Assembly (NCBI GenBank): GCA_021776395.1
Contig: JAJFFZ010000013.1
Location: 1-43,724, forward strand
Reading direction: 5' to 3'
Length of the DNA stretch: 43,724 nt
Origin: Hyphococcus sp.
Lineage (GTDB): Bacteria; Pseudomonadota; Alphaproteobacteria; Caulobacterales; Parvularculaceae
The notes below the pieces were generated by a model. The model was not told the DNA's origin and did no database searches. It saw only the letters and a program-made list of their open reading frames with translations. Shown here one piece after another: positions 3,254-32,574 of the stretch. Numbering within the stretch: the stretch's first letter is position 1; every line of letters begins with the position of its first letter. Made by a program: the position numbers and the translations under genes.

Positions 3254-4591
3254 TTATTCTTCCTCTTGTCGGAGTTTTGGCGCATCGGCGGAACTGGGCC
3301 GGTCGCCTGATGCGATCACATGGGTCGCCGTCATCCCAGCATCGCGAACGCCCTGTTCGCGCCGCAATTGTTGCGCCCAGTTTGGCGCTGCACTGGCGCC
3401 CGGAACGGATGATGAGGCGGTAGATGGTGAACCAGCGATGCGGCCGCCGGTTGCTGTAAACGCCGCGCGTGCTCCTGACTGATAGGCTTCGCCCGGACTG
3501 CCCAGTGAACGCGAAACTGAACTCCGCGCTGATTGCATCGCCGCGCCCGCACCCGCTTGAGCAACACCGCTGGCGCCGGAGGCAACCGAACGCCAACCGG
3601 ACCCGCCTGACGCCGCGCTGCCGAGCGCGTAAGCCGCATTGGCGCCGCCCGCCATGGATGCGCCAGCGCGCACAGCAGATTGGCCAGCACTCGCCGCCGC
3701 TCTTGCGCCTGATCCCGCCAAAGCACCAGCGCCGACCAGCGCAGCTCCGGTTCCTGCGACCGTCGCCACAGCGGCGCCCGCGCCAAGTTGCGGTGCGCCT
3801 GCAACCAGCCCGGTTGCAATGCCGGGCCCAAAGATGCCGAGCGCTAACAAAGAGAGCGAGCCGAGTATCGTCGACGCCGCCTGTTCAAGGGTCACCGAAC
3901 CCGGCGTAAACGTCCCTGCTATCGATCCGAAGATCGTGGAGCCGATGCCGACAATGATCGCCAGCACCATCAGCTTGATGCCCGACGCGATAACATTGCC
4001 GAGGACGCGTTCCGCTAAAAATGAGGTTTTGTTCCAGAGGGCGAAAGGAACGAGCACGAATCCCGCAAGCGTCGTCAGCTTGAACTCGATGATCGTCACG
4101 AATAACTGGATTGCGAGGATGAAGAACGCGAACAGGACAATCACCCAAGCGAGCAGGATAATCACGATAGTGACGAAGTTCGTGAAAAAGCTTGGGAACC
4201 CAATGAGCGAGTTTGCTTCTTCGAGAAGCGGGTATGCCGCATTGAAACCGGTCGCAGCGACAAACCCTGGCTTTAAGAGGTCCGCCGCTGTCAGCGTCGT
4301 GCCGGTAGCGACAAGGCCTAACCCAGCAAAGCTTGAAAAAATAATATTGGCGAGCAGCGCGAAATTATTGATGATGAAAGCAAAAGCGCCCACATAAAGC
4401 ACCTTCTTCACAAATTGCCCGAGAACATTTTGTTCTCCGGCCAGCGCCCAGAACAATCCTGCCAGGACCACATCAATGCCGATCAAGATCGCGGTGAGGA
4501 ATCCCACATCGCCTGCAAGCAATCCAAAACCGCTGTCGATATAAGCGATAAAGGTGCTGGTAAAATCATCTATGACATTGATGTCGTCCAT
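3254..4591 (-). CDS. trbL: P-type conjugative transfer protein TrbL (VirB6-like)
   Basis: 445 aa polytopic protein with a long Ala/Gly/Ser-rich C-terminal tail. Confidence 0.92.
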   Translation of the reverse strand: MDDINVIDDFTSTFIAYIDSGFGLLAGDVGFLTAILIGIDVVLAGLFWALAGEQNVLGQFVKKVLYVGAFAFIINNFALLANIIFSSFAGLGLVATGTTLTAADLLKPGFVAATGFNAAYPLLEEANSLIGFPSFFTNFVTIVIILLAWVIVLFAFFILAIQLFVTIIEFKLTTLAGFVLVPFALWNKTSFLAERVLGNVIASGIKLMVLAIIVGIGSTIFGSIAGTFTPGSVTLEQAASTILGSLSLLALGIFGPGIATGLVAGAPQLGAGAAVATVAGTGAALVGAGALAGSGARAAASAGQSAVRAGASMAGGANAAYALGSAASGGSGWRSVASGASGVAQAGAGAAMQSARSSVSRSLGSPGEAYQSGARAAFTATGGRIAGSPSTASSSVPGASAAPNWAQQLRREQGVRDAGMTATHVIASGDRPSSADAPKLRQEEE

Positions 4592-4606: not shown

Positions 4607-5326
4607 CTATGAGGGTGTGTATGCGGCGCCGTCGCCAAGAAAGCGTTTGCGATGAATGCGGGAACGTTCTTCGGACTGCAGCTGGCGTGCGCGCTCTAGC
4701 GCTTCCGCGCGATATTGAACGCTAAGCATTTGTGCGGTCTGCATTGACTGCTTGGTCTGCAGAGCGATCAGCTGGTTGCCAGCTTGTACGACTTGCAAAT
4801 CCCCGATAGCGCTCTGGCTTTCGGTAACAAGTTCATCGAGCGTCATCGCATCATCGGCGATGGTCTCGGTAATCTTCGCCTGCATCAGCATCGCATCATG
4901 AAGCGAGCGCGAGGCTTCCTCCCAGTGGGTGCGGGCTTGTGCGCCCATCGCCAGATTCGAAAAGCTGGTATAATCTTCCGGGAACAGGATTTTGAACGCG
5001 GTATCAACCGTCGCAACATCATAGGCGATCGAGTTTGCAGTTTTGATCAACTTGTCTATCTCTGCGAGGCGCGCATTGAGCGCTGCTTTTGCCGAATATG
5101 GCAGCTGGGTGAGGTTCTTCGCTTGATTGGCGATCATTTGCGCTTCATTGGTCAATTGCTTGACCTGATTGTTGATCATTTGAAGGGTGCGCGCCGCGGT
5201 CAAAACATTCTGCGCGTAATTCGTCGGGTCATAGACAATGCCGCCGAGAATAAAGGCGTTTGCAGACGAGACAGGCGCCAGCACCAAACCGACAATGGCG
5301 ACACAGCTCAGCAGTTTTGATTTCAT
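4607..5326 (-). CDS. trbJ: P-type conjugative transfer protein TrbJ (VirB5-like)
   Basis: Signal peptide MKSKLLSCVAIVGLVLAPVSSANAFILGGIVYDPTNYAQNVLTAARTLQMINNQVKQLTNEAQM; ATGA overlap with the trbE stop. Upstream in-frame starts also exist. Confidence 0.9.
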   Translation of the reverse strand: MKSKLLSCVAIVGLVLAPVSSANAFILGGIVYDPTNYAQNVLTAARTLQMINNQVKQLTNEAQMIANQAKNLTQLPYSAKAALNARLAEIDKLIKTANSIAYDVATVDTAFKILFPEDYTSFSNLAMGAQARTHWEEASRSLHDAMLMQAKITETIADDAMTLDELVTESQSAIGDLQVVQAGNQLIALQTKQSMQTAQMLSVQYRAEALERARQLQSEERSRIHRKRFLGDGAAYTPS

Positions 5327-7764
5327 TCGGCGGCGCATGAGTAAGCTCCTTTGGGGTTGGTATGTTTCGAGATAAGATCGGCGGCCCAATCGAGCCCTTT
5401 GGCGCGCAAAAAGGCGGGCGCGAACTCCGCCGGACGGTGCTGGTTAAAAACTCGATCTATGATTGAGTGATCATCCGGCGATGAGGCGCCGCAAATGCTC
5501 AAGGCAATGGGTCCAAGCCCGAGATCAAACAAGCGATTGCCGATTGAGGATTGATAGTAATAATCGCGCTTAGGCGTTGCAGTTGCGATGATCTCGATCT
5601 GGCGGGCATTGAGCCCGAATGCATCATAGGCGGCGCGAATACCGATCTCTTGCGCGCGAGGGTTGGGCAAGAATATCCGCGATGGACAGGATTCGATGAC
5701 CGCCGGAGCGATTTTTGAGGTTTGGATGTCGCTTAGTGACTGTGTTGCAAAAATAACCGAAACGTTTTTCTTGCGCAGTGTCTTAAGCCAGTCGCGCAAA
5801 CGTTCGCTAAACAACGGATGGTCCAAAAACACCCAGGCTTCATCAAGCAGCAACAGGGTCGGCCGGCCATCAAAACGCGCCTCCAACCGGTCAAAGAGAT
5901 AGGAAAGCGCCGGTGCGATCGCCGCCTCGCGGCGCATTAGCGTTTCCATCTCGAAGCCCTGAACATCGGTGAGATCGAGCGTGTCGGTTTCAGCATCGAA
6001 AAGACCGCCATGAGCACCGTCAATGGTGAAGGGTTTTAAAGCATCGCGGAGATCAGACCGTTGCAACAGCAGCGAGAACCCCGTCAGCGTACGTTCGCGT
6101 TTAGGCGCTGCCGATAGATTTCCAAGCGCCGACCAAAGCGCATCCTTCACCGACGGATCAAGCATCACGCCTTCCTGGGCAAGAACACCCAACAGCCAAT
6201 GCTGCGCCCGCCCCCGTCCATCATCACTGTCGATATCGGCGAGCGGTTGAAACGCCAGCGAACCTTCAGCGCCTAGATCATGAAACGCGCCGCCAAGGCC
6301 TAAGATGCTTGCGCGCATCGAGCGGCCCTTATCGAAGGCGAATATTTGCGCTTGCGTGTAGCGGCGAAACTGCAGCGCCATCAGCGCCAGAAGAATTGAT
6401 TTACCTGCGCCAGTTGGACCAACAATAAGCGTATGACCGACATCGCCGATATGCGTTGATAGGCGGAACGGCGTTGTTTCTTGTGTAGTCGCCGAAAGCA
6501 GCACCGGCGCTTGCAGATGCTCATTCCTCTCCTGCCCCGCCCAAACCGCCGACAATGGCGCCAAATGGGCAAGATTTAACGTATGGAGAAGCGGCTGACG
6601 GATATTGGCGTAGAGGTGACCTGGAAGACTGCCGAGCCAGGCTTCAACCGCATTGACGCTTTCACGGATTGTTGTGAACCCGCGCGCATTCAAAATGCGC
6701 TCGACCTCACGTAATTTTACGTCAACATTACCCCGGTCTTGATCGCGCACAATAATTGTTGTGGTGAAATACCCGTAAGAAACATCATCGCTCCCGAGTT
6801 CCTGAAGCGCAGCGTCCGCATCCGCCGCTTTGTTGTCGGCGTCAGCATCGACCAAAACACTCTCTTCATTAAAGAGCGTTTCTTTAATAACCGCAGCGAT
6901 GGATTTGCGTTTGGCAAACCATTGGCGACGGTATTTTGTCAGCTCTTTTGTCGCTTTCGCTTTATCAAGCGCTATAAACCGCGTCGTCCAGCGATAGGAA
7001 AACCCGAGCGCGTTGAGCGCATCCAGAAACCCCGGCTCGCTTGCCGGTGGAAAGCCGTGCACAATAAGGCTTCGTAAATGCTCATCGCCCAGCATTGGCT
7101 CCAGCCCGCCGGTAAGCGGCGCATCCAGCATAAACGCATCCAGATATGTAGGGGTTTCCGGAACCGCGACGGGGTGGCGTTTGGTTGATATACAAGCATG
7201 CAAGTAAAACAGCGTTTCTTCGTCGTCGAGCGCGGCGCATTCCGGCATTAATGTTGATAAGAGATCGATGGCGCGGGTCGTCTCATCTGTAAAAGCCTCG
7301 AGATGGTCGCGATAGCTGACTTTGTCTTCGCTCTCATCGCGATCAAGAAACAGCATCTCGGTTTTCCGGGTTCGATCGGTCGGCGGCAGAAAAATGAGGG
7401 TGAGATAATATGCGCTCTCGAAATGCTTACCCGTTGTATCAAAACTCGCGCGGCGCTCTTCATCCACAAGCCAGGCGATATCATCGGACCAGTCGCTTCG
7501 AGGGTAATCGCGCGCTGGAAACCGATCCGCCTCAAAATGTAGCGACCAGCCGGAGCCGAAGCGTTTCAGGATATTATTGATCCGCGCGGTAAAACTGAGG
7601 AGTTCCTCAGCGCTGGCGCTCTCTAAATCCGGACCGCGATATCTAACCGTCCGCTGAAAGCTGCCATCCTTGTTCAAGATAATGCCGGGTGCGATCAACG
7701 ACGCCCATGGCAAGAAATCAGCAAGGCGTTGCGGGCGCGCATTATATTCACGCAAATTTAACAT
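5323..7764 (-). CDS. trbE: Conjugal transfer ATPase TrbE (VirB4-like)
   Basis: 813 aa; Walker A GPTGAGKS, Walker B LLLLDEAWVFLD. Confidence 0.96.
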   Translation of the reverse strand: MLNLREYNARPQRLADFLPWASLIAPGIILNKDGSFQRTVRYRGPDLESASAEELLSFTARINNILKRFGSGWSLHFEADRFPARDYPRSDWSDDIAWLVDEERRASFDTTGKHFESAYYLTLIFLPPTDRTRKTEMLFLDRDESEDKVSYRDHLEAFTDETTRAIDLLSTLMPECAALDDEETLFYLHACISTKRHPVAVPETPTYLDAFMLDAPLTGGLEPMLGDEHLRSLIVHGFPPASEPGFLDALNALGFSYRWTTRFIALDKAKATKELTKYRRQWFAKRKSIAAVIKETLFNEESVLVDADADNKAADADAALQELGSDDVSYGYFTTTIIVRDQDRGNVDVKLREVERILNARGFTTIRESVNAVEAWLGSLPGHLYANIRQPLLHTLNLAHLAPLSAVWAGQERNEHLQAPVLLSATTQETTPFRLSTHIGDVGHTLIVGPTGAGKSILLALMALQFRRYTQAQIFAFDKGRSMRASILGLGGAFHDLGAEGSLAFQPLADIDSDDGRGRAQHWLLGVLAQEGVMLDPSVKDALWSALGNLSAAPKRERTLTGFSLLLQRSDLRDALKPFTIDGAHGGLFDAETDTLDLTDVQGFEMETLMRREAAIAPALSYLFDRLEARFDGRPTLLLLDEAWVFLDHPLFSERLRDWLKTLRKKNVSVIFATQSLSDIQTSKIAPAVIESCPSRIFLPNPRAQEIGIRAAYDAFGLNARQIEIIATATPKRDYYYQSSIGNRLFDLGLGPIALSICGASSPDDHSIIDRVFNQHRPAEFAPAFLRAKGLDWAADLISKHTNPKGAYSCAAE

Positions 7765-8009: not shown

Positions 8010-8338
8010 TAAATCACCGCCCCGCCGCCGAAGGAAAAGAAGGCGAGAAAGAAGCTGGTCGCCGCGAAGGCGATCGACAACCCAAAGACGATTTGAATAA
8101 GGCGGCGCGATCCGCCCGACGTATCGCCAAAGGCAAGCGACAGGCCGGTGATGATAATGATGATGACGGCGACAATGCGCGCCACTGGCCCTTCGATTGA
8201 AGCGAGAATCTGCGCTAACGGCGCTTCCCACGGCATGCCGGAACCAGCGGCGTAAGCAGGTGCAGCTGTTGCCGCCAGGACTGCGCCAACTACGAACGCT
8301 ATCGAAAGTAACCGACGATTGGGATATTGGTTGTTCAT
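8009..8338 (-). CDS. trbC: Conjugal transfer pilin TrbC (VirB2-like)
   Basis: 109 aa, signal peptide plus two TM helices; between trbB and trbD. Confidence 0.92.
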   Translation of the reverse strand: MNNQYPNRRLLSIAFVVGAVLAATAAPAYAAGSGMPWEAPLAQILASIEGPVARIVAVIIIIITGLSLAFGDTSGGSRRLIQIVFGLSIAFAATSFFLAFFSFGGGAVI

Positions 8339-9339
8339 AAATTCACTCCTTCAGTAACGAGGGAAAACCCGCCGGCGCTGGCGGGCTCAAGCTGATAGCA
8401 ATCATGGGCGTCAAGACCGGTGACGCGGAGAATTTCTTCAACCCGCCTGCCGTCATTGGTGCGCGAGATAAAAACAATGAGATCGATCGCGTCGGCGATC
8501 AGTTGATAGGGAATCCTGGCCGTCCGCTCCCCAATCAGTTGCTCAATACGCGACAAGGCGGTCGCCGCTGAATTGGCATGCACCGTCGCAATGCCGCCGG
8601 GATGGCCGGTATTCCATGCCTTTAAAAGATCAAGCGCTTCGCCGCCCCTCACCTCACCGACAATGATCCGGTCCGGGCGGAGGCGCATGGTAGATTTAAC
8701 GAGTTGTTCTAGCCCGACGCCCAGCGAGGTGCGCAACGCAACAAGGTCAGGCGCTTCACAGCGAAGCTCGCGTGTGTCTTCAAGGATGACGATGCGCTCT
8801 TCCGCGCGCGCAACTTCTGCGAGCAGCGCATTAACGAGCGTGGTTTTCCCGGACGACGTGCCGCCGGCGATCAAAATATTATCGCGGGTCTTAACGGCGG
8901 ATTTGAGGACCAGCGCCTGGGCGCCGGTGATGACGCCGGCTTCAACATAATCGTCGAGGCTGATAACGCGGCCCGCCGGTTTGCGGATCGCGAATGCCGG
9001 CCCGAGCGCTATGGGCGGCAACACGCCTTCAAAGCGCTCACCGGTTCCAGGGAGTTCTGCGGAAACAACCGGGTTTTCCTTGTTGCAATCAAACCCCACA
9101 TGGCTTGCTACCAACCGGATGATCCGTTCAATGTCTTGGCGGTTTAGGACCTTATCCTCACGAATTCGGCCAGTCTCATGGCGTTCAATCCACAGCGCCC
9201 CATCGGGATTGACCATGATCTCAATGACGGACGCATCATCAAGCGCCGCGCCGATTATCGGCCCGAACGCTGTCTTTAACATCGAGGCGCGCCGAGCCGC
9301 CGTTATGGCGGCGCCATTGGTTGGTGATCGGTCGGTCAT
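8335..9339 (-). CDS. trbB: Conjugal transfer ATPase TrbB (VirB11-like)
   Basis: Start at MTDRSPTNGAAITAARR; Walker A GGTSSGKTTLVNALL; VirB11 motifs ILEDTRELRC and RLRPDRIIVGEVRGGEALDLLKAWNTGHPGGIATVHAN. Confidence 0.95.
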   Translation of the reverse strand: MTDRSPTNGAAITAARRASMLKTAFGPIIGAALDDASVIEIMVNPDGALWIERHETGRIREDKVLNRQDIERIIRLVASHVGFDCNKENPVVSAELPGTGERFEGVLPPIALGPAFAIRKPAGRVISLDDYVEAGVITGAQALVLKSAVKTRDNILIAGGTSSGKTTLVNALLAEVARAEERIVILEDTRELRCEAPDLVALRTSLGVGLEQLVKSTMRLRPDRIIVGEVRGGEALDLLKAWNTGHPGGIATVHANSAATALSRIEQLIGERTARIPYQLIADAIDLIVFISRTNDGRRVEEILRVTGLDAHDCYQLEPASAGGFSLVTEGVNL

Positions 9340-9788
9340 TCGGCCGCCTCCAATGCGCCGCCGCCAACTGGTTCCAATCCCATGTGAGAGAGAAGCGCAT
9401 CGCCATAACGCTCCTTTCCCATCAACCGGTCGCCAACCTGTCCGATAAAATGCTCGAACCGCTTCCGGCCCAACGCCTCGGCGCCAGCGCGCGATTGCTC
9501 CGGGAGTGGCGGCGTGATGCAAAGATAGTAAAGCACGTAGAGAGCAAGGGTCTCAGATTGCGCCGCCCCATCATCAGCAAGCCGCTCCATGGCTCTGGTC
9601 ATTTTGTCAAAACGTTTAATGAGAATGGTTAGTTCGCGGGTCTCAGATGTTGGCGCTAGCAATTGCTTTAGCGCCGCATCCACAATTGACGCTTTTGTAC
9701 TGTTTTCATGATGCGTCGCGTGATCGAGGAGCTTTGCAGCCTCATGACTAATGTGAATATTGATGCGGGGTTTTGGCATGATACTCAC
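9336..9788 (-). CDS. Ribbon-helix-helix (CopG-like) protein of the tra/trb operon
   Basis: MPKPRINIHISHEAAKLLDHATHHENSTKASIVDAALKQLL is RHH-like; ATGA overlap with traG and overlap with trbB. Confidence 0.8.
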   Translation of the reverse strand: MSIMPKPRINIHISHEAAKLLDHATHHENSTKASIVDAALKQLLAPTSETRELTILIKRFDKMTRAMERLADDGAAQSETLALYVLYYLCITPPLPEQSRAGAEALGRKRFEHFIGQVGDRLMGKERYGDALLSHMGLEPVGGGALEAAE

Positions 9789-11812
9789 ATGCTCGGTAAA
9801 ATGCTGTCGGGGTGCTGGTCGAGTCCGGCGGCGCGGCGTGCAGTCTCGCGACTAAGCTGGTTCAATCGACGCGCGACTGCTTGGTCGTCGTCACCTTCCA
9901 AACTCTCATCAGAAGGTTCGGGTATGATTTCTTTTTGCTGTTTGGAGGGCGCGAATTCCGGTTTAAGAGCATGCCCGCCTTCGTCGCTGACAGTCTTCAG
10001 CGAATCTTCGTCCGCTTGTGAATGGTCAAAAACGGGATTGTTCGGCATAGGCGCACCCGACCAATCGTCGCAGCGCTGCTCTGGCCGATCCGGATACGCA
10101 GTCGTCCAATCGGTAATTTCTGGCGGTGCGGCACAACGCGCCATGAAGTTTGCATCTTCAAAATATTTGAGCTTGTTGGCGCGGATCGGCGGGGCGCCAG
10201 CAATCAACACAACCGCCTCATCGGCCGGCAATTGCATCACTTCACCTGGCGTCAATAATGGCCGCGCTGTTTCCTGGCGCGAGACCATGACATGGGCGAG
10301 CCACGGCGCCAGGCGATGTCCGGCATAGTTCTTCTGGGCGCGCAATTCGGTGGCCGTGCCAAGCGAGTCGGATATCCGTTTTGCCGTGCGATCATCGTTG
10401 GCGGCGAAGGCAATGCGTATATGGCAATTATCGAGGATCGAATTGTTGGCGCCATATGCTTTTTCGATCTGGTTCAGCGACTGCGCGATCAGATAGGCGC
10501 GCACCCCATAGCCCGCCATGAAGGCAAGCGCCGATTCAAAGAAATCGAGCCGCCCAAGCGCTGGAAACTCATCGAGCATCATCAATAATTTGTGGCGTTT
10601 AGGCGCAGATGCGGTCTCGAGCTCTTCGGTGAGCCGCCGACCGATCTGATTGAGGATCAACCGCACCAGGGGTTTGGTGCGTGAGATGTCTGACGGTGGC
10701 ACAACGAGATAAAGCGAGACCGGATGCTCGGCATCCATCAACTCTGCAATCCGCCAGTCGCAAGCGCTTGTGACTTTTGCAATCGTCGGGTCGCGATAGA
10801 GCCCTAAGAAACTCATTGCCGTTGATAAAACGCCCGATCGCTCATTTTCGGATTTGTTCAAAAGCTCGCGCGCCGCTTGCGCCACAACCGGGTGCGTTTG
10901 AGGCGCACCCTTTGTTCCCAAATGATTGGTCGCCATCATGATGGTGAGGCTCCCCTCGAAAGATCGTGAAGGGTCCGACAGAAACGACGCTACTCGCGCT
11001 AACGTCTTTTCTTCCTCGGTGTAGAGGACATGAAGAATGACCCCGACCAGGAGAGCGTGCCCAGTCTTTTCCCAATGGGTGCGCCGTTCTAAGGAGCCTT
11101 CTGGATCAACGAGAATATCAGCTATGTTTTGAACGTCGCGAACCTCGCCCTCGCCTTTTCGCACCTCCAGAAGCGGATTGTATCGCGCCGAATTCGGATT
11201 GGTCGGATCGAATAACAAGCAGTGGGAGAAGGTTGATCGCCAACCGGCTGTGAGCTGCCAGTTCTCGCCTTTGATATCGTGGATGACGGTACTGCCCGTC
11301 CACGATAATACTGTTGGTACGACAAGACCGATGCCCTTCCCCGATCGCGTCGGCGCGAAAGCCATAACATGCTCCGGCCCATCATGACGGAGATAGTCGC
11401 CGTTCCATTTCCCGAGAAACACGCCTGATGAATTCAGCAAACCCGCTTTTGTAATATCGTTGCTGGCCGCCCATTTGGCGGAACCATAGGTCGTAACATT
11501 TTTTGTTTGCCGCGCCCGCCAGACAGAACCTGCGATCGCAGCGACTGCGCCAAACATCCCGCCCGACGCGGCAATGGCGCCGCCGTGCATGAAGACTGCT
11601 GGCGCATAAGCCTCGTAAGAATACCACCACTCGAACAGACGCCACGGATAATAGATCGGCGTATCAAATGTGTTGAACCATGGGGAACCGAGCGCCGCGT
11701 CATAGCCAAAAGCGCCGGCGACATAGGCGGTCGCCGCCCACATCGCGCTCGCAATGATAAGAAAAACAACAATCGCCTGACCGATCAGTATTTTTGTTGG
11801 CGTCATGATCAA
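9785..11812 (-). CDS. traG: Conjugal transfer coupling protein TraG/VirD4
   Basis: 675 aa; Walker A APTRSGKGIGLVVPTVLSW, Walker B LLMMLDEFPALGRL; two N-terminal TM segments. Confidence 0.95.
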   Translation of the reverse strand: MIMTPTKILIGQAIVVFLIIASAMWAATAYVAGAFGYDAALGSPWFNTFDTPIYYPWRLFEWWYSYEAYAPAVFMHGGAIAASGGMFGAVAAIAGSVWRARQTKNVTTYGSAKWAASNDITKAGLLNSSGVFLGKWNGDYLRHDGPEHVMAFAPTRSGKGIGLVVPTVLSWTGSTVIHDIKGENWQLTAGWRSTFSHCLLFDPTNPNSARYNPLLEVRKGEGEVRDVQNIADILVDPEGSLERRTHWEKTGHALLVGVILHVLYTEEEKTLARVASFLSDPSRSFEGSLTIMMATNHLGTKGAPQTHPVVAQAARELLNKSENERSGVLSTAMSFLGLYRDPTIAKVTSACDWRIAELMDAEHPVSLYLVVPPSDISRTKPLVRLILNQIGRRLTEELETASAPKRHKLLMMLDEFPALGRLDFFESALAFMAGYGVRAYLIAQSLNQIEKAYGANNSILDNCHIRIAFAANDDRTAKRISDSLGTATELRAQKNYAGHRLAPWLAHVMVSRQETARPLLTPGEVMQLPADEAVVLIAGAPPIRANKLKYFEDANFMARCAAPPEITDWTTAYPDRPEQRCDDWSGAPMPNNPVFDHSQADEDSLKTVSDEGGHALKPEFAPSKQQKEIIPEPSDESLEGDDDQAVARRLNQLSRETARRAAGLDQHPDSILPSM

Positions 11813-11898
11813 ATCCCGTTAAACGCAAGCATGCGCTCGATCGGGCGATCATCGGCCTACAAACCAAAAACTGTCACTAGGGATTATAAGGGATTTCT

Positions 11899-12003
11899 TG
11901 CGGCTCTATGTGGCCGGATGTGGCGATTGGCGGCCATTTGAGGCGGCTTGTGGTTACTTGCGGTGATATGTGGTGGATTGCGGGAATTCGCGGTTGCATG
12001 TGG
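11899..12003. repeat. 11 direct copies of TG(T/C/A)GG with exact 10-bp period
   Basis: Copies start at 11899, 11909, 11919 (TGTGG), 11929 (GGCGG), 11939 (TGAGG), 11949, 11959, 11969, 11979, 11989 (CGCGG), 11999; the G and GG positions are invariant in all 11. Confidence 0.9.
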
Positions 12004-12279: not shown

Positions 12280-13527
12280 ATGATCGACTTTGACGTAAAA
12301 AAACGCAGCGTCGTCCTAGAGTATGAGCCTGACTTCAACGCCGGCTGGGTAATGAAGGAGCTGAACACTCATCGCCAAGTGACCATCAGCCGCGCGTTTA
12401 CCTTTAAGGAAGGCGATCTCATTTCCGGGCCGGATGAAACGGAATTCGGAGATGTCGAGGAAGGCGCTTTCCGGTTTCGCTTCGCCAAACGAAAAGACGG
12501 ATATTTCTGCATCGCCGGTCGAATATTGAACATCGAGAATGATGTATTGATCGCCGATCAAGGCATTCTACTCGAACGCAAGCTTTTCGTGGCCGAGCGC
12601 AATATCGGCATATTTCGGCGCATCGCCAAGGTGAAGCAGGACGATGGCGATATCGTTGTTGGCGGCAACCGTGACGGCGCCATCCCGATAGACGCCTTTC
12701 GCGAACTACTCGACAAATTCCCGAACTCCGGAGAGCTCGACCGCTATGCAAGTGCACGTGTCGAGACCATCGTCGGCGAATTCTTCGACGGGATGAGAAG
12801 TGCGCGCGAGAAATACGAAACCTATCTCAGCAAGCGAAAGTCGTCCGTAAGCAAAAAACCGCTCCGGCAACAAGCGCTATTGCAGGCGGAAATCGACAAA
12901 TACATCTACTTGCGTGACACGATTTCGGCTTGGCTAGAAAAAGCGTACACCTATACCGAGCGCGACTGGCAGGGGATGATCACGAAAGTCATCCTTCTTT
13001 TATTCCCGAAATATGTCGCCGTGCTGGAGAATGTCCAAATTTCTGATTTCTACTCATCGCCGGACCGCAGGAAAAAGAGGTACATCGACCTGTGCCTCGT
13101 CGATGCTGGCGGAAACATCGACGTCATCGAAATTAAGAAGCCATTCGATAACACCATCCTGAGCAAGAGTCGCTACCGGGACAATAGCCTTCCGGCGAGG
13201 GAACTGTCGGGAAGCATCATGCAGGCGGAGAAATACCTATTCCACCTTTCAAAATGGGGCGTCGCGGGTGAGCGCGCACTGTCCAAGCGATATGAAGCGG
13301 AACTACCGACCGCGATGCCAATCCGCATCACCAATCCTAAGGCAATGATTATCCTGGGGCGGGACCGCTTGCCGAGCAGCCAACAAGCACTTTCAGAAAG
13401 TCAGATGCTCGACCTGGAGGTCATCAAACGCAAATATGCCAATATGATGGACATCCTCACATACGATGACCTTTTACGGCGCCTGGACAACATGATCGCT
13501 TCGCTCTCTCAACGAAAGCAGAAATAG
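12280..13527 (+). CDS. Shedu-family immune nuclease (SduA-like, DUF4263)
   Basis: 415 aa; C-terminal PD-(D/E)XK-like signature IDLCLVDAGGNIDVIEIKKPF followed by SGSIMQAEKYLFHLSKWG, as in DUF4263/Shedu; N-terminal beta-rich region. Confidence 0.75.
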   Translation: MIDFDVKKRSVVLEYEPDFNAGWVMKELNTHRQVTISRAFTFKEGDLISGPDETEFGDVEEGAFRFRFAKRKDGYFCIAGRILNIENDVLIADQGILLERKLFVAERNIGIFRRIAKVKQDDGDIVVGGNRDGAIPIDAFRELLDKFPNSGELDRYASARVETIVGEFFDGMRSAREKYETYLSKRKSSVSKKPLRQQALLQAEIDKYIYLRDTISAWLEKAYTYTERDWQGMITKVILLLFPKYVAVLENVQISDFYSSPDRRKKRYIDLCLVDAGGNIDVIEIKKPFDNTILSKSRYRDNSLPARELSGSIMQAEKYLFHLSKWGVAGERALSKRYEAELPTAMPIRITNPKAMIILGRDRLPSSQQALSESQMLDLEVIKRKYANMMDILTYDDLLRRLDNMIASLSQRKQK

Positions 13528-13560
13528 GAAATTCGGCACGAGGCGCTTCGCGCCTTGTAA

Positions 13561-13590
13561 GGCGGGCCGTGGCCCGCCATCTTTTTTTTC
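13561..13590 (+). terminator. Rho-independent terminator after the Shedu-like gene
   Basis: GGCGGGCC-GT-GGCCCGCC followed by ATCTTTTTTTT; preceded by a second small hairpin AGGCGCTTCGCGCCT. Confidence 0.85.
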
Positions 13591-13812
13591 AGCGGGGTAA
13601 ACACCGCCCTACGATTTTTTGTCCGGGGTAATTTCTTATGACCGCTTTTGCGCACCCAACGGCCCATCACTTTGTCGTAAGAGACTTTACGCTTTCAGCT
13701 CCACTCCATTTCCCACGCACGGCCATTAATGCGCCATCCGACAGAAACGAGCGAAGCTCTACCGAGCCGGCCCATTTCATGCTTCAAAGAAGTCTCGACG
13801 GAAACTCTCAGC

Positions 13813-15510
13813 ATGGGGACAACGGTTATGCTTCAAATCAATACCGGCAAACTTTTTACCCGTGATATTAGTCGTACAAATCAGCTGAGAGGCATTCTGT
13901 ATTCAAACGGCTGGATCGTCCGTGATGATGATATCTTAACCGCTGCAGGCACGCTTCGCTCAGCAGGATCAGGTCCTCACAACAGTGCCATCGTTTACGA
14001 ACTTCTTGAGAATATCGAGAAGGAAAAAGAAGGACCGGGAGTGCTGATATCACACACGGTCAAGCCGTATCTCGATGACATGGCTGCTGTTGCATCATTC
14101 TATCTCGGCGTTTTGGTTTCCCCTGATCATGATCTCGTGCAGCGTATGATAGACGGCACCTCACACCTTTCCGCGCACGATCAACCTCGCAAGTTCGTCC
14201 AGCGCTTCTTCGATAAACAGGTCCCTCTGAGTCCCGAAGATGGGAGTGCATTCAGCGATTTTATCGCGCAATTATTGGGGCTCGAAAGAAAGCACTTTCT
14301 AGGAGCCATGAGAGCAATTCGAACCTATGTGGCGGCTTTCCACAGCCTTAGTTCCGATCTTGGCTTATCCTATACCTTGCTCGTTTCTGCCGCCGAAACC
14401 TTGTCCCAGAAGTTTGATGATTATGAAAGCGAATGGAGCGATGTTGATGATCAGAAAAAGCATCGCATCGACAAAGCGATGGAGGGAGTGCCTGAAGCAA
14501 GAGCGAATGCTGTGCGTGAGGCCATAGTCCAGTCAGATCACGTTGCTCTATCTCGTAGGTATGGGGAGTTTGTGCTCGCAAGCGTAGGGCCTAAATATTT
14601 TCGCGGAATTGAACCCAAGCCTATCTCGAAATGGGAATTACCTATTGCACTAAAGCAAGCTTATGCCTTTCGGTCAAAGTACATTCACTCAGCAAAACCA
14701 CTGCCAGACCCTCTTACGATGCCCATGAAAGACTGGGAAACGACCGAAGTTGACCGTCGTCCAGCTTTGACATTCCAAGGGCTTAGCCGATTGACCCGGC
14801 ACGTCATTATTCACTTTGTCGAGAACGGCCAAAAGATCGACCAAGAAGTCTATGATTACAGCTTAGAGCGTGCCGGGATAGCTCAGATGCAACTAGCAGC
14901 GCAGTATTGGGTCGCTCGACCAATTGCTGAGGCCGAGCACGTTAAACAACGGTTAGAGGGGTTTCTCGGTCAACTCGCGACATTCTATTTGAGTAATCCC
15001 AGAACGCCGCTCACGGATTTGCGTCCAATCATGGGGTCGTTAAGAGATATGTTTGCACAAGCAAAAGCCTCACACCGTCCTTCGATTTACGCGCTTTATC
15101 TTCTCTTTAACGCGTTAGCTGGATCAGAGGTCGCAGCAGAAGACTGGCAGGATTTTTGTAACAAGCATTCTAATCTATTCGACCAGCCAACGGGTGAAAC
15201 TCTAATCGCAAGAACGATCTTGGAGGATGCCTCATGGGATATCTCTGTGCACGAAAAGGCCTACAAAAACTACTGGGATCAGCGCTTAAGCCGGTCTGGT
15301 TTACACGCTCCAAAGTTTTTTGAAGCGGCCGCAAGTTTGACGCTGGCAGAAAGATACCGGCAAAACGGCGACTTGGATAGTGTCCAACTTTATGTGTCTT
15401 CAGCTGTAGAATGCTATCCAGAGTGCAAAATCCTCATAGCGTTCGAAGCCGCTTCAGACTTCTCAGACAAAATATCTTGGCGAGAGATTTTAGCTGTGGA
15501 GTCTGAGTAA
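13813..15510 (+). CDS. Uncharacterised protein with HEPN-like RxxxxH motif; candidate defence cargo
   Basis: About 565 aa from MGTTVMLQINTGKLF (the ORF opens at 13729). Contains a helical region with KQAYAFRSKYIHSAKPLP (RSKYIH, nt 14671-14688), like Apea/HEPN RX4-6H motifs. Start uncertain. Confidence 0.55.
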   Translation: MGTTVMLQINTGKLFTRDISRTNQLRGILYSNGWIVRDDDILTAAGTLRSAGSGPHNSAIVYELLENIEKEKEGPGVLISHTVKPYLDDMAAVASFYLGVLVSPDHDLVQRMIDGTSHLSAHDQPRKFVQRFFDKQVPLSPEDGSAFSDFIAQLLGLERKHFLGAMRAIRTYVAAFHSLSSDLGLSYTLLVSAAETLSQKFDDYESEWSDVDDQKKHRIDKAMEGVPEARANAVREAIVQSDHVALSRRYGEFVLASVGPKYFRGIEPKPISKWELPIALKQAYAFRSKYIHSAKPLPDPLTMPMKDWETTEVDRRPALTFQGLSRLTRHVIIHFVENGQKIDQEVYDYSLERAGIAQMQLAAQYWVARPIAEAEHVKQRLEGFLGQLATFYLSNPRTPLTDLRPIMGSLRDMFAQAKASHRPSIYALYLLFNALAGSEVAAEDWQDFCNKHSNLFDQPTGETLIARTILEDASWDISVHEKAYKNYWDQRLSRSGLHAPKFFEAAASLTLAERYRQNGDLDSVQLYVSSAVECYPECKILIAFEAASDFSDKISWREILAVESE

Positions 15511-15615
15511 GCACGTTGCCGTTGTTCGTTCGCGCAAGACTGTCAAGTTGTACGTGGAACCAAACCGGGCTCACATCACGCTCTATCTGATGTGTCCCGA
15601 GATCGGGTTATGTCC

Positions 15616-15638
15616 GCTTCTGCGCGCTCAGCAGAAGC
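15616..15638. repeat. Inverted repeat GCTTCTGC-N7-GCAGAAGC between convergent genes
   Basis: Perfect 8-bp arms; no U-tract. A second IR CACATC-N11-GATGTG lies at 15572-15594. Confidence 0.75.
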
Positions 15639-15699
15639 AAGCCCTGACATTGGTTGTCGCCTGTTGTTTGGCTTCAGTTACCTCAATATGACGGCGCTT

Positions 15700-16635
15700 T
15701 CATAGCCGGTCCGCCGTAGCTTCGATTTTTTCCAAGATCTCTGCAAAAGACGGCATTTCCCGATAGTAGAGCGTACGCGTTCTCGCATAGGCGCCTTCGT
15801 AAAGCTTGCGCGTGTCATTGTCCCGAAGAAAAAACGCCTCATTCTTCGCGATTTCTTTTTCGTCTCCTTGTCGGAAACGGGCGTCTTTATGCGCCTTGTA
15901 TTCAAGCGTGCCGATAAATTTTTGAACATCTTCGGAACTCAATAGGCAGTAGACGTCGTAGTAATGCCGTATGAAATTCTGGGGTAAGGCGCCCGTTCCC
16001 TGTTGTTTGCGGTATTTCGTCGAGATTGTCTGGAGTTTCTCGACAAAGGTGTAACCCGGCTCATAGCACGCGACGGCTTTGGCGCGGTTATCGAGAATAT
16101 CATCGGCGCCGTTCTTTATAGCGTGATCGAATGCCCAGGAAGATATATCGCAGGGCCGATTCGGCGCGGTTACATCAAAGCCGGCTTCAAGAAGTATACC
16201 CTCTTTCACGCCAGCGGGTATTGGGTTTTGCGTATCATATTGGAGCCGAATGCCGGCGTTTCGTAATTTTGCGTCGTCAAAGGCTTCGTCGCGGTCAACA
16301 CTCACGATACCTGGTATTTTTATTTCTGTTGCAAGAGTTTCAAAATATTTCCGGCGCGCTTCGATTTGTGCTGGCTTTGTTTGGTTTCGCCCAACGGGCA
16401 AATCATCCGGCGGAATGATTTTGATGTCGATATCCTCAGAGAAACGATGGATGAGTTGGTAGCCCTTTGATAAAGACGTGCCGCCTTTCAGTTCGAATGC
16501 ATAACCGGCTTCTTGCAAACCGAACAGGCAATGCATGATCCAATAGTCTTTTTCGACAAGGGCCGGATCGATCCCAAGATCGCGCCCGACAATGGCGAGA
16601 AGACCAGCAAAGTCAGGCGCTTCATGGAGATACAT
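15700..16635 (-). CDS. AbiEii/AbiGii-type nucleotidyltransferase toxin
   Basis: 311 aa; LVEKDYWIMHCLFGL...FELKGGTSLSKGYQLIHRFSEDIDIKI, the AbiEii GGTSLxKxxxxxxRFSEDIDL-type motif. Confidence 0.88.
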   Translation of the reverse strand: MYLHEAPDFAGLLAIVGRDLGIDPALVEKDYWIMHCLFGLQEAGYAFELKGGTSLSKGYQLIHRFSEDIDIKIIPPDDLPVGRNQTKPAQIEARRKYFETLATEIKIPGIVSVDRDEAFDDAKLRNAGIRLQYDTQNPIPAGVKEGILLEAGFDVTAPNRPCDISSWAFDHAIKNGADDILDNRAKAVACYEPGYTFVEKLQTISTKYRKQQGTGALPQNFIRHYYDVYCLLSSEDVQKFIGTLEYKAHKDARFRQGDEKEIAKNEAFFLRDNDTRKLYEGAYARTRTLYYREMPSFAEILEKIEATADRL

Positions 16636-17243
16636 TAGGCCACCGCACGCAATTCAGTATCGCCCACAAGAGGTTCGAATACGCGTTTAGCGCGTCGGCC
16701 GCCAAATTCGCGAACAGCTTTTTCGAGAGTTTTCGGGTCCATTTTCGCGGCACGCATCACAACGCGCTCAACGAGCGCACCTTGATCTTCCGCAAGCCGA
16801 TCAAGATTGTCGACGAGATCGACCAGCAAAAATGGTTCTGACGCTTTGTTCGGAAAGTACGGCTTTAGACGAAAGTCAAACCATCGCCCTCCCAGTTCAA
16901 AACGGCCGCGGCGCTTGGCGTTGTACACCACGGTTTCGTTGTAGAGTTGTGTAGCGCCAACGCCCAGGCCGTTATAGGAGCTTGGCGAAACCATAAGAAA
17001 ACGATCATCTTTCAAAAATCGTTCGACGAGTTTGTTCGGATCGGCTGGCGCATCGCCAAACCGCGTTTTCTTGGGCGTGCTGTAAAGGCCGCCGGACACC
17101 TTGACGAGCCTCCCTTCCTCAAGAAGTTCGCGCAGATGACGGTCAACCGCATTGGACCAACGCGCCAGATCGGCGCGCCGGTAGACCTGCCCCGGGCGAA
17201 GTTTCTTCTTCAATTCATTCAAGGCTGTCATCGCTTGCTCCAT
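16635..17243 (-). CDS. AbiEi-like / DUF6088 antitoxin
   Basis: ORF extends to 17303; internal start around MEQAMTALNELKKKLRPGQVYRRADLARWSNAVDRHLRELLEEGRLVKVSGGLYSTPKKTRFG (winged-helix). Stop overlaps the toxin start. Confidence 0.82.
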   Translation of the reverse strand: MEQAMTALNELKKKLRPGQVYRRADLARWSNAVDRHLRELLEEGRLVKVSGGLYSTPKKTRFGDAPADPNKLVERFLKDDRFLMVSPSSYNGLGVGATQLYNETVVYNAKRRGRFELGGRWFDFRLKPYFPNKASEPFLLVDLVDNLDRLAEDQGALVERVVMRAAKMDPKTLEKAVREFGGRRAKRVFEPLVGDTELRAVA

Positions 17244-17403
17244 TTCAACGTCCAATATAGGCCCCCAGGCATTAAACTGCAAGTTTTTTGATGAAAATTT
17301 CATGCAAGTTTAAAAATAATAGTCTCCTATACTATTGATTTACATTGCATTTTTATGTGTTCATGGGAGGGTAAAAGACTCAAAATATCTATCATAATTG
17401 CAA

Positions 17404-19378
17404 TCATCGGGCAGGACCACGCAATCGCTTAGTGAATTCCCAACTGACGCCGCCCCGGCCCATGACGCCAGAGACCTCCATCCCGCGGCGTTTTTCGAGC
17501 GCGGCGCGCCACGGAACCAGCGTGAATTCTTTCGACTTTTCAATGAGTGCAAACCGGCCTGATGGCAGATCAACAAAACGGCGATAGATGCCAGTGACGT
17601 GTTCTCCTTCATTGGCAGGCGTAAAAGCCTTACCGGTTTGCTTGGCAAGCTTTGCAGCGGTCTCATTCATCGCACTGCGTTCAGCTTTGCACAGGGCATT
17701 ACGATCAATGGCGAACTTGTCACCCTCTTCCGTCGCCAGCCCTTGCGACAATAACCAGCGCCGCCGCGCCGCGATCGCCGCATTTAATTCCCTGCCGAAT
17801 TTATGGTCAACGGCGCCCAGTGTTTTACGGGTCTCCAACAAATCATCGATAAAGACTTGCGCCTTCGCTTCAGGCAAATGTTCAATACTGACCCAGGAAA
17901 GTGTTTTGATACACGCAGCAGATCGCTCCGATTCAAATTGCTTTTCCCGCTCCAGATAGTCGCCGGGCACACGCCACGACCCATCGCTCTTTCGCACAAC
18001 AATTCCAGCGCGGCGCAATGCTTCCAGTTGCCGCTTATGGGCGAGCCGAAATTCAGCGCTCGCTGATGGATCAGACGCGGCATGGTGTTGATCGGAATAG
18101 ACGCCGTCATTGCGCTCGGCGATCGCTGCAATTACGAGATCGGATTTTTTGGGCGTCGCAACGCCTCTCGTCACTTCTAAAATAGCGCCTTTCGGCGGCA
18201 TGGCGCCGGGCTCATTATCGACCGCCACATGCCATTGATTGCCATCGACGCCGTCAAGCGCCAGAAACCGTTTTTCATGGGCGCCATCTGCAGCGCCTGC
18301 TCCAGCAACACGGCCAATGAGCTTTACAGGCGCGTTCTCTGAACCAAATTCACGCATTGTCGAAGGCGCAAACCCCTCGCCCATTGTAGCGTCCATGGAC
18401 CGGATGATATCGCCGCGCCGTCCCATGGCTTTGAGCGCTGGTTCATGTCTCTCCGACAAATGCCAGCCGGATTTATCGCGGCGCGCGAGAGTCATTTTCT
18501 CTAGTGTGCGCAGTCTCGCCATCAAAAGCTTCACCCGAAATCGTTCATAGGGCGCGCGGGGTTTCTCAAAAGCGATCGCGCCATCTTTCACCATCTCGGC
18601 AAGCTCACGATCAAGGCTCGTAAACCGCTCTTTATCAACTTCGGTATAGCGGTCTTTTGCAATCTCAAAATCACGCCGTTGACCGAGCTCCAGGGTAGCA
18701 ATTTCACTGGCGCATTTGCGAAACCCGTGCGTGATATAATTGCGGGCAATGACGAGGTCTTTTCCATCATCCGCTTTTCCTCGCAAAACCACATGGACAT
18801 GAGGGTGATCAGTATCGAAGTGATTGACCGCGACCCAGTCGAGCTTTGTGCCAAGATCATTTTCCGCCACCGCCATAACATCGCGTGTGAAAGAATTAAG
18901 ATCGGCGAGCTCGCCCGCGTCCTCCGGCGACAAGATGATCCGAAACTGATGGCGATCATCCTTGCCATCCTTTAAAAATTCTTTGCCCTCGATCTCCTCA
19001 CGATCAGGCCCATAGAGTTTCCCTGGAATCTTCTCGCCATCCTTGTCTTTCTGAGCGCCGTCGCGTTGCAAATATCGAAGATGCGCCTGCACTTTGGCGA
19101 GACCATTGCCGCCAAGCCTGACGGATCGAATTTTGACGGCGACACGCCGCGCTCGAAAGCCAGCAAATGGATGGCGTGAGGCGAAGGCGGCGCCAAGCCC
19201 TGCCCCGCGTCCTATCCGAGCGCCAGTAAACCGCGCGCCTGATCGCTTCGCGAAAACGCCAGGGCGGGCTTTTTCCATGGCCGCATAGAGCTTGCCGAGG
19301 TAGCGCTTTGACGCAGCGCCGCCAACGCTACGCATACGACCCAAACGCGGGCGGAAATCATCTTTAGACCCAGCCATT
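17404..19378 (-). CDS. Relaxase/mobilisation nuclease with VirD2-like and DUF3363 domains
   Basis: Start at MAGSKDDFRPRLGRMRS (ORF open to 19410). Motif WVAVNHFDTDHPHVHVVLRGKADDGKDLVIARNYI is the HxDxxHxHxxx relaxase motif III. Confidence 0.9.
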
Positions 19379-19494
19379 GGTCTTGCACTCTTTTGCACTA
19401 AACCTAACACCCATGGTGCATAAAAACGGGATGTGCAGACTGCTTTGCAGTGGGGTCTTGCACCACTGCTTTAATCTTGCCCTGCAGCCCTTTT
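19379..19494. promoter_or_regulatory. Candidate oriT/regulatory region upstream of the relaxase
   Basis: IR GCAGTGG-N9-CCACTGC (19447-19453/19463-19469), then TTTAATCTTGCCC. TTGCAC repeats at 19383, 19393 and 19458. Confidence 0.4.
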
Positions 19495-20061
19495 TCATAC
19501 TGCTTCCCCATCAACCCACACAGCCGACCCAGTCATATCACGACCCAACGATGCATCAGTTTTCGTCCATAGAGGGATGGAGACGCCGATGATTTCGGAC
19601 GTTTTTGTCACGCCCAAATAACGCCCATCAAACGATTTTATTGGTGCATTTAGGAGAAAAACTTCATCCAAATTGAGTTCAAAACAGCCGCTCCATACAG
19701 GCATTTTTCGGCCCATAGAATCGAATAAAAGCGCATCTGCGACGTGGGTTTTGTTAATCAAAATTCGCTCATTGATACGGCAAATCTCATCACCAGATAA
19801 CCCCGATACACGCTTTATGAGCGGCGTTCCAGGTGGTAAATAGCGCCGCTTCGCAATAAGAGCCGCGATAGATTTTGGCGGCTCAACGAGCGCAAATTCG
19901 CCAAGCTGAACTACACGATATTCTATTCGATAGAGTCCAATAGGAGCGCTATTCGAACCGTTCCATACGAGCCACGGCGCAAAACTCCTGAAGCTTATAG
20001 CTAGAAGCGCGATGACGGATATTGCACTTGCAATGATAATTATAATTCGGTGGTTTTTCAT
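19495..20061 (-). CDS. traF: TraF-like S26 family signal peptidase (conjugation)
   Basis: 188 aa; SxPxGLYR-like NGSNSAPIGLYRIEY, then YLPPGTPLIKRVSGLSGDEICR (Lys region). Confidence 0.85.
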   Translation of the reverse strand: MKNHRIIIIIASAISVIALLAISFRSFAPWLVWNGSNSAPIGLYRIEYRVVQLGEFALVEPPKSIAALIAKRRYLPPGTPLIKRVSGLSGDEICRINERILINKTHVADALLFDSMGRKMPVWSGCFELNLDEVFLLNAPIKSFDGRYLGVTKTSEIIGVSIPLWTKTDASLGRDMTGSAVWVDGEAV

Positions 20062-20309
20062 TGCTCCGCACGCTTACTGGTGGAGCGAAAACGTCGCCTC
20101 GCAGACCATCGGTTAAGATCATCGATGTGATAAACAATCTTTCCGCCATGCTTTCGATAGGCAGGCCCTTCACCAGTCATACGGTAGTTTTCAAGCGCTC
20201 TTTCGCTAATCCGTAAATAAATGGCGGCTTCAACAGCACTCAAATATGGGCTTTCAATGTCCGGTGCCCGGACGCATGGCGTGCTCACAAGACTTCCCCC
20301 AATACTCAA
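20058..20309 (-). CDS. Helix-turn-helix (MerR/excisionase-like) DNA-binding protein
   Basis: 83 aa; SPYLSAVEAAIYLRISERALENYRMTGEGPAYRKHGGKIVYHIDDLNRWSARRR; overlaps the traF start. Confidence 0.85.
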   Translation of the reverse strand: MSIGGSLVSTPCVRAPDIESPYLSAVEAAIYLRISERALENYRMTGEGPAYRKHGGKIVYHIDDLNRWSARRRFRSTSKRAEQ

Positions 20310-23255: not shown

Positions 23256-24242
23256 TTACGAATCCGAACGCCTGCGCAACCAATCTGCTATGGCACGGCC
23301 AATAAACTCCGGTTGATCTTCTTGAATATAATGCAAACCGCCACCGACGAAGACGGTCTCGATATTATTAAGATTCTCCGTCAACCAATCAACTGAGGAA
23401 AGCGGAAGGAGCGAGCCGGGCGATACATATAACAGCAAGAATGGCGTATCAGTGCCTAACATCCAGCGGCTATAATTTTCGACAATTTGAGTTGTCGATA
23501 CAGGCTCACCCCCGATAGGTACTTCGTTCGGCCAGCGCCAGATAGGCTTTCGCGATTCTCTACTCTTAAACGGCGCGCGATATGCATCAAGTTCCTCTTC
23601 GGTTAAATCGCGCATCACGCCTCCCGGCAAAATACGTTCGATGAAGGCGTTTTCATCCATCAGCATTTTAGGGCCGGTTTTCGGATCGCGCATCACCTTG
23701 AAGATCGCACCAATCCGCATTGCATCATAACTTGGAAAGGGCGCGGCGGGCGGAACAATTGGTTCCATGAAAGCAACGCCCTTGATGTTGCCCTCATGGC
23801 GCGAAGCATAATGCATTCCAAGCGCCGATCCCCAGTCGTGAATGACGAGCGTTACATTTTTCAGCCCTAGCTCCTCGATGAAGGCCTCTAGATAGTCCGT
23901 ATGATCGGTAAAATAATAATCAATATCGGGCTTGTCCGACTTGCCCATACCGATGAGATCTACTGCAATTACTCGACCACGAGATTTCAAATATGGAATT
24001 ATGTTACGCCAGAGATAGGAGGACGTGGGATTGCCGTGCAAGAGAAGGATCGGATCACCGTTCCCTTCTTCTACATAGTGCATTTTCGCCCCTAATACTT
24101 TCGCGAATTTTGATTCATATGGAAACAACGCTGAGATTTCCTGTTCATATTTAGGCTTCGCCTGTGGAGCGGTCGCGGCCTTTTTTACTTGCGTGCTGTC
24201 TTTTCCATGGCTCGCGCCTAACATCGACTTTATGATGGACAT
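23256..24242 (-). CDS. Haloalkane dehalogenase-like alpha/beta hydrolase (HLD-II-like)
   Basis: 328 aa; LLLHGNPTSSYLWRNIIPYL (halide-binding Asn), VIHDWGSALGMHYA (nucleophile Asp plus Trp), VAFMEPIVPP (Glu), GGGLHYIQEDQP (His); about 40-residue N-terminal extension. Confidence 0.88.
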   Translation of the reverse strand: MSIIKSMLGASHGKDSTQVKKAATAPQAKPKYEQEISALFPYESKFAKVLGAKMHYVEEGNGDPILLLHGNPTSSYLWRNIIPYLKSRGRVIAVDLIGMGKSDKPDIDYYFTDHTDYLEAFIEELGLKNVTLVIHDWGSALGMHYASRHEGNIKGVAFMEPIVPPAAPFPSYDAMRIGAIFKVMRDPKTGPKMLMDENAFIERILPGGVMRDLTEEELDAYRAPFKSRESRKPIWRWPNEVPIGGEPVSTTQIVENYSRWMLGTDTPFLLLYVSPGSLLPLSSVDWLTENLNNIETVFVGGGLHYIQEDQPEFIGRAIADWLRRRSDS

Positions 24243-24342
24243 TTTTTTCTCCTGTAACGATTGATCTTAAATTCCGTATTTCGATCCGCTGTGAGCCATG
24301 TTGCGCTACAGCTATCTTGCTTAAATAGAGCGGTGAGAAAAC

Positions 24343-25866: not shown

Positions 25867-25985
25867 AGCGCGCTTCCTCTTTTTGCATCCGACGGAATCG
25901 GGCCAACCTCGACAGCGGTCGTCTCCGAAATGCTTCCGTATACGGTTTTGTTGCAGATTTTTGAAGTAGGGCATAAAACATTAGC

Positions 25986-26771
25986 TTATCGCCCCGTGTA
26001 GGTGGGTTTTCGTTTCTCAAAGAAAGCACTCATACCTTCTTCGCGATCTTGCGTTGAAAATAAACTCTCAAATATTCGTCTTTCATATTCCAGGCCAGCG
26101 CGGGATGCCGTTTCATAGCTATGGCGTAACGCGCCAATGGCGCCTTGCACGGCAAGCGGGGCTTTTTCAGAAATTGTGGTTGCGATCTCGATCGCCCTTG
26201 TGAGCGCCGTCCCATCGGCAACAACGTCTAACACCCATCCAGCCTGCTGCGCGCGATCCGCGGTTATGAACTTACCCGTTAACACCATATAAGCTGAAAG
26301 CGACATGCCTACTTTACGCGGCAAAATCTGTGTGCCGCCGGCACCCGGCATGATGCCGAGATTGATTTCTGGCTGGGCAAATTGCGCCGATTGCCCAGCG
26401 ATTACGATATCGCAGGCAAGGACGAGCTCCGAGCCCGCACCCAGACAATAACCCTCCACAGCCGCAATGAGCGGTTTTGGAAACGCCCAGATGCGCTTCC
26501 ACGCCTTAAGCCTTGGATCACCGAGAATACTAGTTGCATCATAACTGCGAAGTTCATTCAAATTGGCGCCCATAGCGAACGTATCCGTAGCGCCCGTTAT
26601 GACGACACAAAGGATTTCGCGCCGTGATGTCGCATCGTCAAGATGTTGAGCGATCGACTGTAAGGCTGATGTCGTGATGACCTTTCTTTTTCCTTCATAA
26701 GAAAGCGCAATCGTCAGAAGTCGATCTCGAACAGACGCTCTTATGAGTACACCGGCCTCCGGTTTCTTCAT
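25986..26771 (-). CDS. Enoyl-CoA hydratase/isomerase family protein
   Basis: Start at MKKPEAGVLIRASVRDRLLT; crotonase motifs FAMGANLNEL, GAGSELVLACDI, QPEINLGIMPGAGGTQ keep both catalytic Glu positions; ATGA coupling to the thiolase. Confidence 0.92.
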   Translation of the reverse strand: MKKPEAGVLIRASVRDRLLTIALSYEGKRKVITTSALQSIAQHLDDATSRREILCVVITGATDTFAMGANLNELRSYDATSILGDPRLKAWKRIWAFPKPLIAAVEGYCLGAGSELVLACDIVIAGQSAQFAQPEINLGIMPGAGGTQILPRKVGMSLSAYMVLTGKFITADRAQQAGWVLDVVADGTALTRAIEIATTISEKAPLAVQGAIGALRHSYETASRAGLEYERRIFESLFSTQDREEGMSAFFEKRKPTYTGR

Positions 26772-27976: not shown

Positions 27977-28025
27977 TCTTATGTCATCCCGACGATATTA
28001 ATTCTTGCGCAGACACCGTTATGAT

Positions 28026-29609: not shown

Positions 29610-29717
29610 CTATTTTCCTGACCAAATAGTGCTTACTACCTTCGCCTCTAACAGAACCGATGGTAAAAATGGGGCCGCCCTTTCGAACGACCCCAAGTGG
29701 CTTGCGCCAGGGAGAGG

Positions 29718-32372: not shown

Positions 32373-32574
32373 TTTTTCCTCCTAAACGACCAACTTCTTG
32401 TTCTCCCTGCGACGCTGGCCCGTGCGTAGGAACGCACCAATCACAATCAGCTAATTATTATTTTAATCACAAAACACGATTTTACGTGCAGCGAATCATT
32501 CTTACTGATCGTAAATCAACTTCTCATCCCCTCCCTGTCACGTAACTTCGCACTTGAAGTAAGCACATCGATAT

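Follow-up and report, generated by a model that had tools for sequence, protein, structure and literature searches.

The window, by which we mean the whole 43,724-nucleotide stretch of Hyphococcus sp. DNA that was analysed, contains upstream of traG a row of eleven short sites that recur with an exact 10-bp period. Probably, the RHH protein whose gene directly follows traG uses this phased array as a multi-site operator to repress the traG-RHH-trb operon, to which that gene belongs, a reading in which we infer both the binding and its sign. The spacing of the sites is preserved upstream of traG in related elements, whereas the site sequence differs from one group of elements to the next.

The array occupies positions 11899 to 12003 on the plus strand, with its pentamers starting at 11899, 11909 and so on to 11999 and reading, in order, TGCGG, TGTGG, TGTGG, GGCGG, TGAGG, TGTGG, TGCGG, TGTGG, TGCGG, CGCGG and TGTGG. 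The preliminary description of eleven pentamers at exact 10-nt spacing with variable filler holds, as the period-10 score of the array is 10.3 where 40 Markov shuffles of the window reach at most 5.4, and column counts bear out the G at position 2 and the GG at positions 4-5 of every site (11/11 each). Position 1 is T in 9/11 and position 3 a pyrimidine (C or T) in 10/11. The TGYGG core then proposed is real but, with an A or T preceding each of the 11 pentamers, is more accurately given as the 6-mer W(T)GYGG, or CCRCAW on the traG sense strand. Period 20, a harmonic of 10, is the only other period that stands out, with 7 and 14 at background. Simple tandem duplication or a minisatellite can be ruled out because the filler is far less alike than the core (0.2-0.3 bits in the sampled filler columns versus 2.0 bits in the invariant columns) and, the filler being random, Tandem Repeats Finder (minimum score 30) misses the array. 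Rfam and tRNA scans gave no match, and a DNA-level plasmid search with the array returned no homologous region. Two weaker sites lie on the plus strand nearer to traG, TAGGG (11878-11882) and AAGGG (11888-11892), spaced 10 bp from each other and shifted by 1 bp relative to the main array. Judging from this phasing and from the TAGGG repeats in the RxQxR-class elements L004 and L005, they would extend the array toward traG.

The window is part of a Tn4371/rlxS-type ICE, with a DUF3363 relaxase, a TraF peptidase, TraG and trb genes in the characteristic order; Pfam matches for this gene set fall at 17404-19410, 19495-20061, 9785-11812, 8335-9522, 5323-7764, 3254-4591 and 326-1585. A minus-strand block encodes TrbI, TrbL, TrbE, TrbB, the RHH protein and TraG, and the array comes next. 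The coupling protein gene traG (9785-11806, minus strand; T4SS-DNA_transf, PF02534, E 4e-105) likely starts at the ATG at 11806, although the ORF extends to 11812, and the array therefore begins ~92 bp upstream of traG rather than the ~87 bp given originally. The RHH reading frame (9336-9779, minus strand) opens 6 nt past the traG stop codon, which is consistent with coupled expression. It is followed in the operon by the trbB ORF (8335-9522, minus strand; PF00437), whose true start is probably near 9340. Beyond the array lie divergent cargo (Shedu and a 593-aa protein), an AbiE pair, the DUF3363 relaxase, the TraF-type peptidase, HTH_17, DUF736 and ArdC.

The nearest of these genes, the Shedu (SduA) defence gene (12280-13527, plus strand; PF14082, E 9.5e-33; PADLOC SduA, E 2.8e-182), has no part in the array mechanism. 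No Shedu matches were found in the other loci searched and, in the sister element of the same genome, the array sits beside a different protein; as the array stays with traG while its far-side neighbour changes, it does not belong to the Shedu gene. Together with an AbiEi/AbiEii pair and the 593-aa protein, Shedu forms a block of defence cargo between traG and the relaxase (12280-17303). The 593-aa protein (13729-15510), encoded on the same strand after Shedu, has no Pfam, NCBIfam or PADLOC match. A large metabolic block, either cargo or chromosome, occupies positions 23256-41327 and encodes a haloalkane dehalogenase, 3-hydroxyacyl-CoA dehydrogenase, thiolase, TonB receptor, aldehyde dehydrogenase, nitronate monooxygenase, MFS transporter and hybrid histidine kinase.

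Conservation of the phasing was evaluated in 137 traG-upstream regions, taken from relatives of the host genome and from named genomes, of which 113 remained after removal of near-duplicates. Lag-10 self-similarity reaches at least 11 in 25 of the 137 regions, with all other lags at 7 or below except the harmonics 20 and 30. An exact run of at least 6 nt is repeated at spacing 10, between -40 and -140 from traG, in 36 of the 113 non-redundant regions, compared with 0-8 regions at other spacings (6 to 25) and 1-4 regions in control windows 200-500 bp away. The signal does not depend on long arrays: when these are excluded, spacing-10 runs are found in 23 of 99 short-array loci, versus no more than 7 at any other spacing. 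The 80 named-genome loci, 1.30 Mb in all, contain seven lag-10 segments that score at least 15, six of them located within ~225 bp upstream of traG; the seventh, the only such segment outside this position, is L121:339-377 (GGAGCACATC... repeats). The phasing is thus conserved in the orthologous regions of more than one element, where the motifs are specific to the element and the filler has diverged. It has limits, as spacing-10 repeats precede 0 of 20 distant traG homologues (L230-L249, about 35-45% identical), although 17 of these 20 loci have an RHH homologue nearby, a combination that counts against the RHH reading. A TGNGGx5 pattern matched four loci among 149 relatives, all Tn4371/rlxS-type elements, with 0 matches to the reversed control pattern. 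In an unbiased pattern search of 385 genomes of the class, there were, besides the array of the window, only low-complexity or isolated matches, at approximately the reversed-control number.

Copy number in related elements is mostly 2-4, some lineages have at least 5, and the longest array extends over ~190 bp. An array of about this length, in the region L180:3370-4190, precedes a 205-aa traG fragment in what is apparently a decayed element, with no RHH gene in the 10 kb examined. Period-10 phasing is also present at L266:7690-7856 and L263:6516-6719, where a divergent ParA-like operon lies on one side of the array and a probable RHH accessory gene, followed by a relaxase and traG, on the other. 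The accessory gene looks MobC/TrwA-type and, by analogy, the region is reminiscent of R388 stb-oriT-trwA.

The site sequence is specific to each group of elements, and the motif has thus diverged under a conserved phasing. WTGYGG sites occur in the window, its sister (L085), L046 and L084. Elsewhere the sites are TTTGGGG-type (L006 and L007), TAGGG (L004 and L005), AGCG/TGCGG mixtures (L010), GGATGC (L047), GATGGGC in Sphingomonad elements, TACGC or TCCAA, and the beta/gamma Tn4371 elements have two GTGCC/GGCAC sites. The sister's TraG is 89% identical to that of the window and its proximal flank is nearly unchanged, but its array is much shorter. This is consistent with gain or loss of 10-bp units, the exact event not being fixed by the gapped alignment. 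Covariation of the motif with the RHH strand beyond common descent was evaluated by partial Mantel tests, whose p values lay between 0.004 and 0.39 according to motif definition, orientation and threshold; given this variation with settings, we claim no motif-protein covariation. Proteins of the RLNVHV strand class have R, N and H as in the window protein, yet their elements carry TCCAA-type sites, so that the site cannot be predicted from the three presumed contact residues alone.

A promoter-like pair presumably lies between the array and traG. Fourteen loci of the window's clade share the conserved sequence GTGAC-N19-GAT[G/C]AT, which starts 71-79 nt before the traG start, and a consensus scan of the window selects the same pair, GTGACA (11877-11872) and GATGAT (11853-11848), separated by 18 nt on the minus strand (11848-11877), as a putative traG promoter with a weak -10 match. 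An alternative -10 box, TATAAT (11883-11888, minus strand), positioned between the two weak proximal sites, is less likely because it is common to the window and the sister element only. Throughout the window's clade, the array adjoins the GTGAC box, the presumed -35, on its upstream side.

The RHH protein (MPKPRINIHIS...) is likely the protein that binds the array, as profile matches and the position of its homologues suggest. The preliminary description had noted an RHH protein encoded beside traG, and this association is both real and conserved, with the gene directly following traG in nearly all related elements (124 profile matches). Its Pfam RHH_1 match is below the cut-off (E 0.13). When a profile of 31 family members was compared with solved structures, however, it matched a CopG-family protein (9kkd, E 5.9e-5), CopG (1b01/2cpg, E 4e-4) and ParG (1p94, E 0.02), and the N-terminus is by this profile a CopG-like RHH fold, of a strand and two helices. 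An AF2 monomer has helices at 12-21 and 29-41, then long helices; the strand is not seen, as it is expected to pair only in the dimer. The top Foldseek matches to this model are mostly RHH proteins, none significant. The layout is that of an autoregulatory operator, with the sites 92 bp before traG and an operon that encodes the RHH protein, and it is the same family-wide. In L084 (G032:C38), where no traG was recognised, an array with the window motif heads an HTH_17-led operon that includes an RHH gene with the strand RVNVHV. This locus (L084:4615-9670) is an apparent element remnant, with a Fic-like gene between the relaxase and the RHH gene, and the phased array persists before HTH_17.

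Genetic data exist for a probable relative, likened here by description and gene position. In Bradyrhizobium sp. SUTN9-2, copG1 is described as located downstream of traG in a T4SS cluster. A copG1 deletion mutant expresses traG1 and trbE1 more strongly in non-symbiotic conditions, and under genistein the effect is dual and more complex (PMC11201211). Homologues of the window RHH protein follow traG in four Bradyrhizobium loci (L119, L131, L141 and L146).

As we envisage the mechanism, each ~6-bp site would accept one RHH dimer in the major groove and the 10-bp spacing would set all the dimers on one face of the helix, where neighbours could touch and so bind cooperatively. The dimers would form a short nucleoprotein filament, ending at the traG promoter, that holds this promoter low so that the traG-RHH-trb operon represses itself until a fall in free RHH protein, or an activator, opens it. 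The basic family design would be 2-4 sites 10 bp apart, a row that has been enlarged by whole units in the window and in some other lineages, and added sites should raise the apparent affinity and sharpen the switch. RHH binding, cooperativity, repression and the effect of length are what we infer from the arrangement.

The position of the array upstream of the presumed -35 box in the window's clade is compatible also with the opposite sign, in which the same RHH dimers, on the polymerase-facing side of the DNA, make the array an activation platform for a weak promoter. We regard this as unlikely. The array does border the -35-like box on the upstream side, the promoter has a poor -10 match and CopG1 of SUTN9-2 seems to have a positive effect under genistein, but loss of copG1 increases traG1 and trbE1 expression in non-symbiotic conditions (PMC11201211). 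Moreover, in the beta/gamma Tn4371 elements the two sites sit between TTGACC and GATCCT boxes, where a bound protein should block polymerase.

It is distinctly unlikely that the array is bound instead by the small HTH_17 (AlpA/excisionase-type) protein encoded at 20058-20309, coating the phased direct repeats in the manner of Xis. Excisionase-type proteins bind rows of sites cooperatively, as this reading supposes, and in L084 the array is directly before the HTH_17 gene. The identity of the HTH_17 protein does not, however, track the motif: the sister's protein is 58% identical and has the same motif, whereas those of L110 (56%), L102 (54%) and L141 (52%) accompany other motifs. The upstream region of the window's own HTH_17 gene also has no TGNGG pair.

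We give still less credence to the array being a DNA-bending element or the site of another regulator, for example a LysR activator of the TraR type. In ICEKKS102, traG expression is increased by TraR and a half-site has been proposed near the traG promoter, but this is a single CAAAACG half-site and not a 10-bp row (PMC11448139). The invariant G and GG columns and the element-specific motifs argue for base-specific contacts over A-tract bending.

The preliminary description had put forward autoregulation or partition, and of the two the former is the better supported. A partition or stability site of the parC, omega parS or stbDR type, segregating or anchoring the excised circle, seems very improbable. 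ParR/parC do combine an RHH protein with one-turn iterons (PMC5016525), and StbA, bound to repeats of 11-bp period, also lowers R388 conjugation (PMC3098194), but no gene for a par motor was found next to the array, the array is part of the traG-RHH-trb conjugation operon, and the two-site versions carried by most relatives are not large enough to be a centromere. An origin of transfer is not favoured, since the family oriT has been mapped to the traF-traI interval (PMC11448139).

With self-repression by the RHH protein as the preferred reading, the array can be placed among known systems. CopG of pMV158, the solved RHH repressor (1b01/2cpg) matched by the family profile, acts on its own operon, but it has a single short operator and no long array and is only 45 aa, whereas proteins of the window RHH family have in addition ~75 aa of helical sequence at the C-terminus. 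The omega protein of pSM19035, to which the array was compared initially, likewise forms rows of RHH dimers, coating 7-10 promoter-overlapping sites with the affinity set by copy number. The omega/parS sites are, however, contiguous 7-bp heptads and the window has 5-6-bp sites at 10-bp spacing, with period 10 only and 7 and 14 at background, so that this likeness is loose. ParR/parC and StbA/stbDR are closer than omega in spacing, and it is the long arrays that are like them; the two-site versions look more like classical RHH operators. ParR/parC of R1, pB171 and pSK41 combine an N-terminal RHH domain with direct repeats about one helical turn apart beside a repressed promoter (PMC5016525). 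There, parC flanks or precedes a par operon with a ParM motor, unlike the window array, which precedes traG; the Pfam-scanned ORFs include no ParM, and traG and trbB flank the RHH gene. The stbDRs of R388 also lie close to conjugation genes and consist of short direct repeats (9 bp + 2) in phase, and bound StbA lowers conjugation, but their period is 11 bp, StbA is TraK-like and the site is by oriT and the stbABC operon (PMC3098194). The window array has period 10, not 11, and adjoins traG, not an stb operon. CopG1 of SUTN9-2 shares with the window an RHH-annotated gene downstream of traG and, in the accessible text, is described without an operator (PMC11201211).

The ingredients of the array are known already. 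A family-wide one-turn operator upstream of traG, with motif turnover and expansion to at least 11 sites, was not found in the open literature searched, nor was any description of an operator for the conserved RHH protein of Tn4371-type ICEs, though an earlier description may exist. The traG/trb operon promoter is a conjugation control point in an ICE family that ranks among the widest in Proteobacteria, with related loci in Pseudomonas, Stenotrophomonas, Sphingomonas, Mesorhizobium and Bradyrhizobium, among others. The common layout, at least two sites one turn apart and 40-140 bp before traG, is a candidate operator for many of these elements, and the natural series of array lengths, from 2 to >10, is suited to measuring repression against repeat number. 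More tentatively, Tn4371-type ICEs could have a fast-diverging operator code in which every RHH protein recognises a 5-6-bp site of its own on a fixed one-turn scaffold. If so, co-resident elements would regulate their transfer without cross-talk, lineages would tune the switch by gaining or losing whole 10-bp units, and the long arrays would form a ParR-like filament with a role that may exceed repression.
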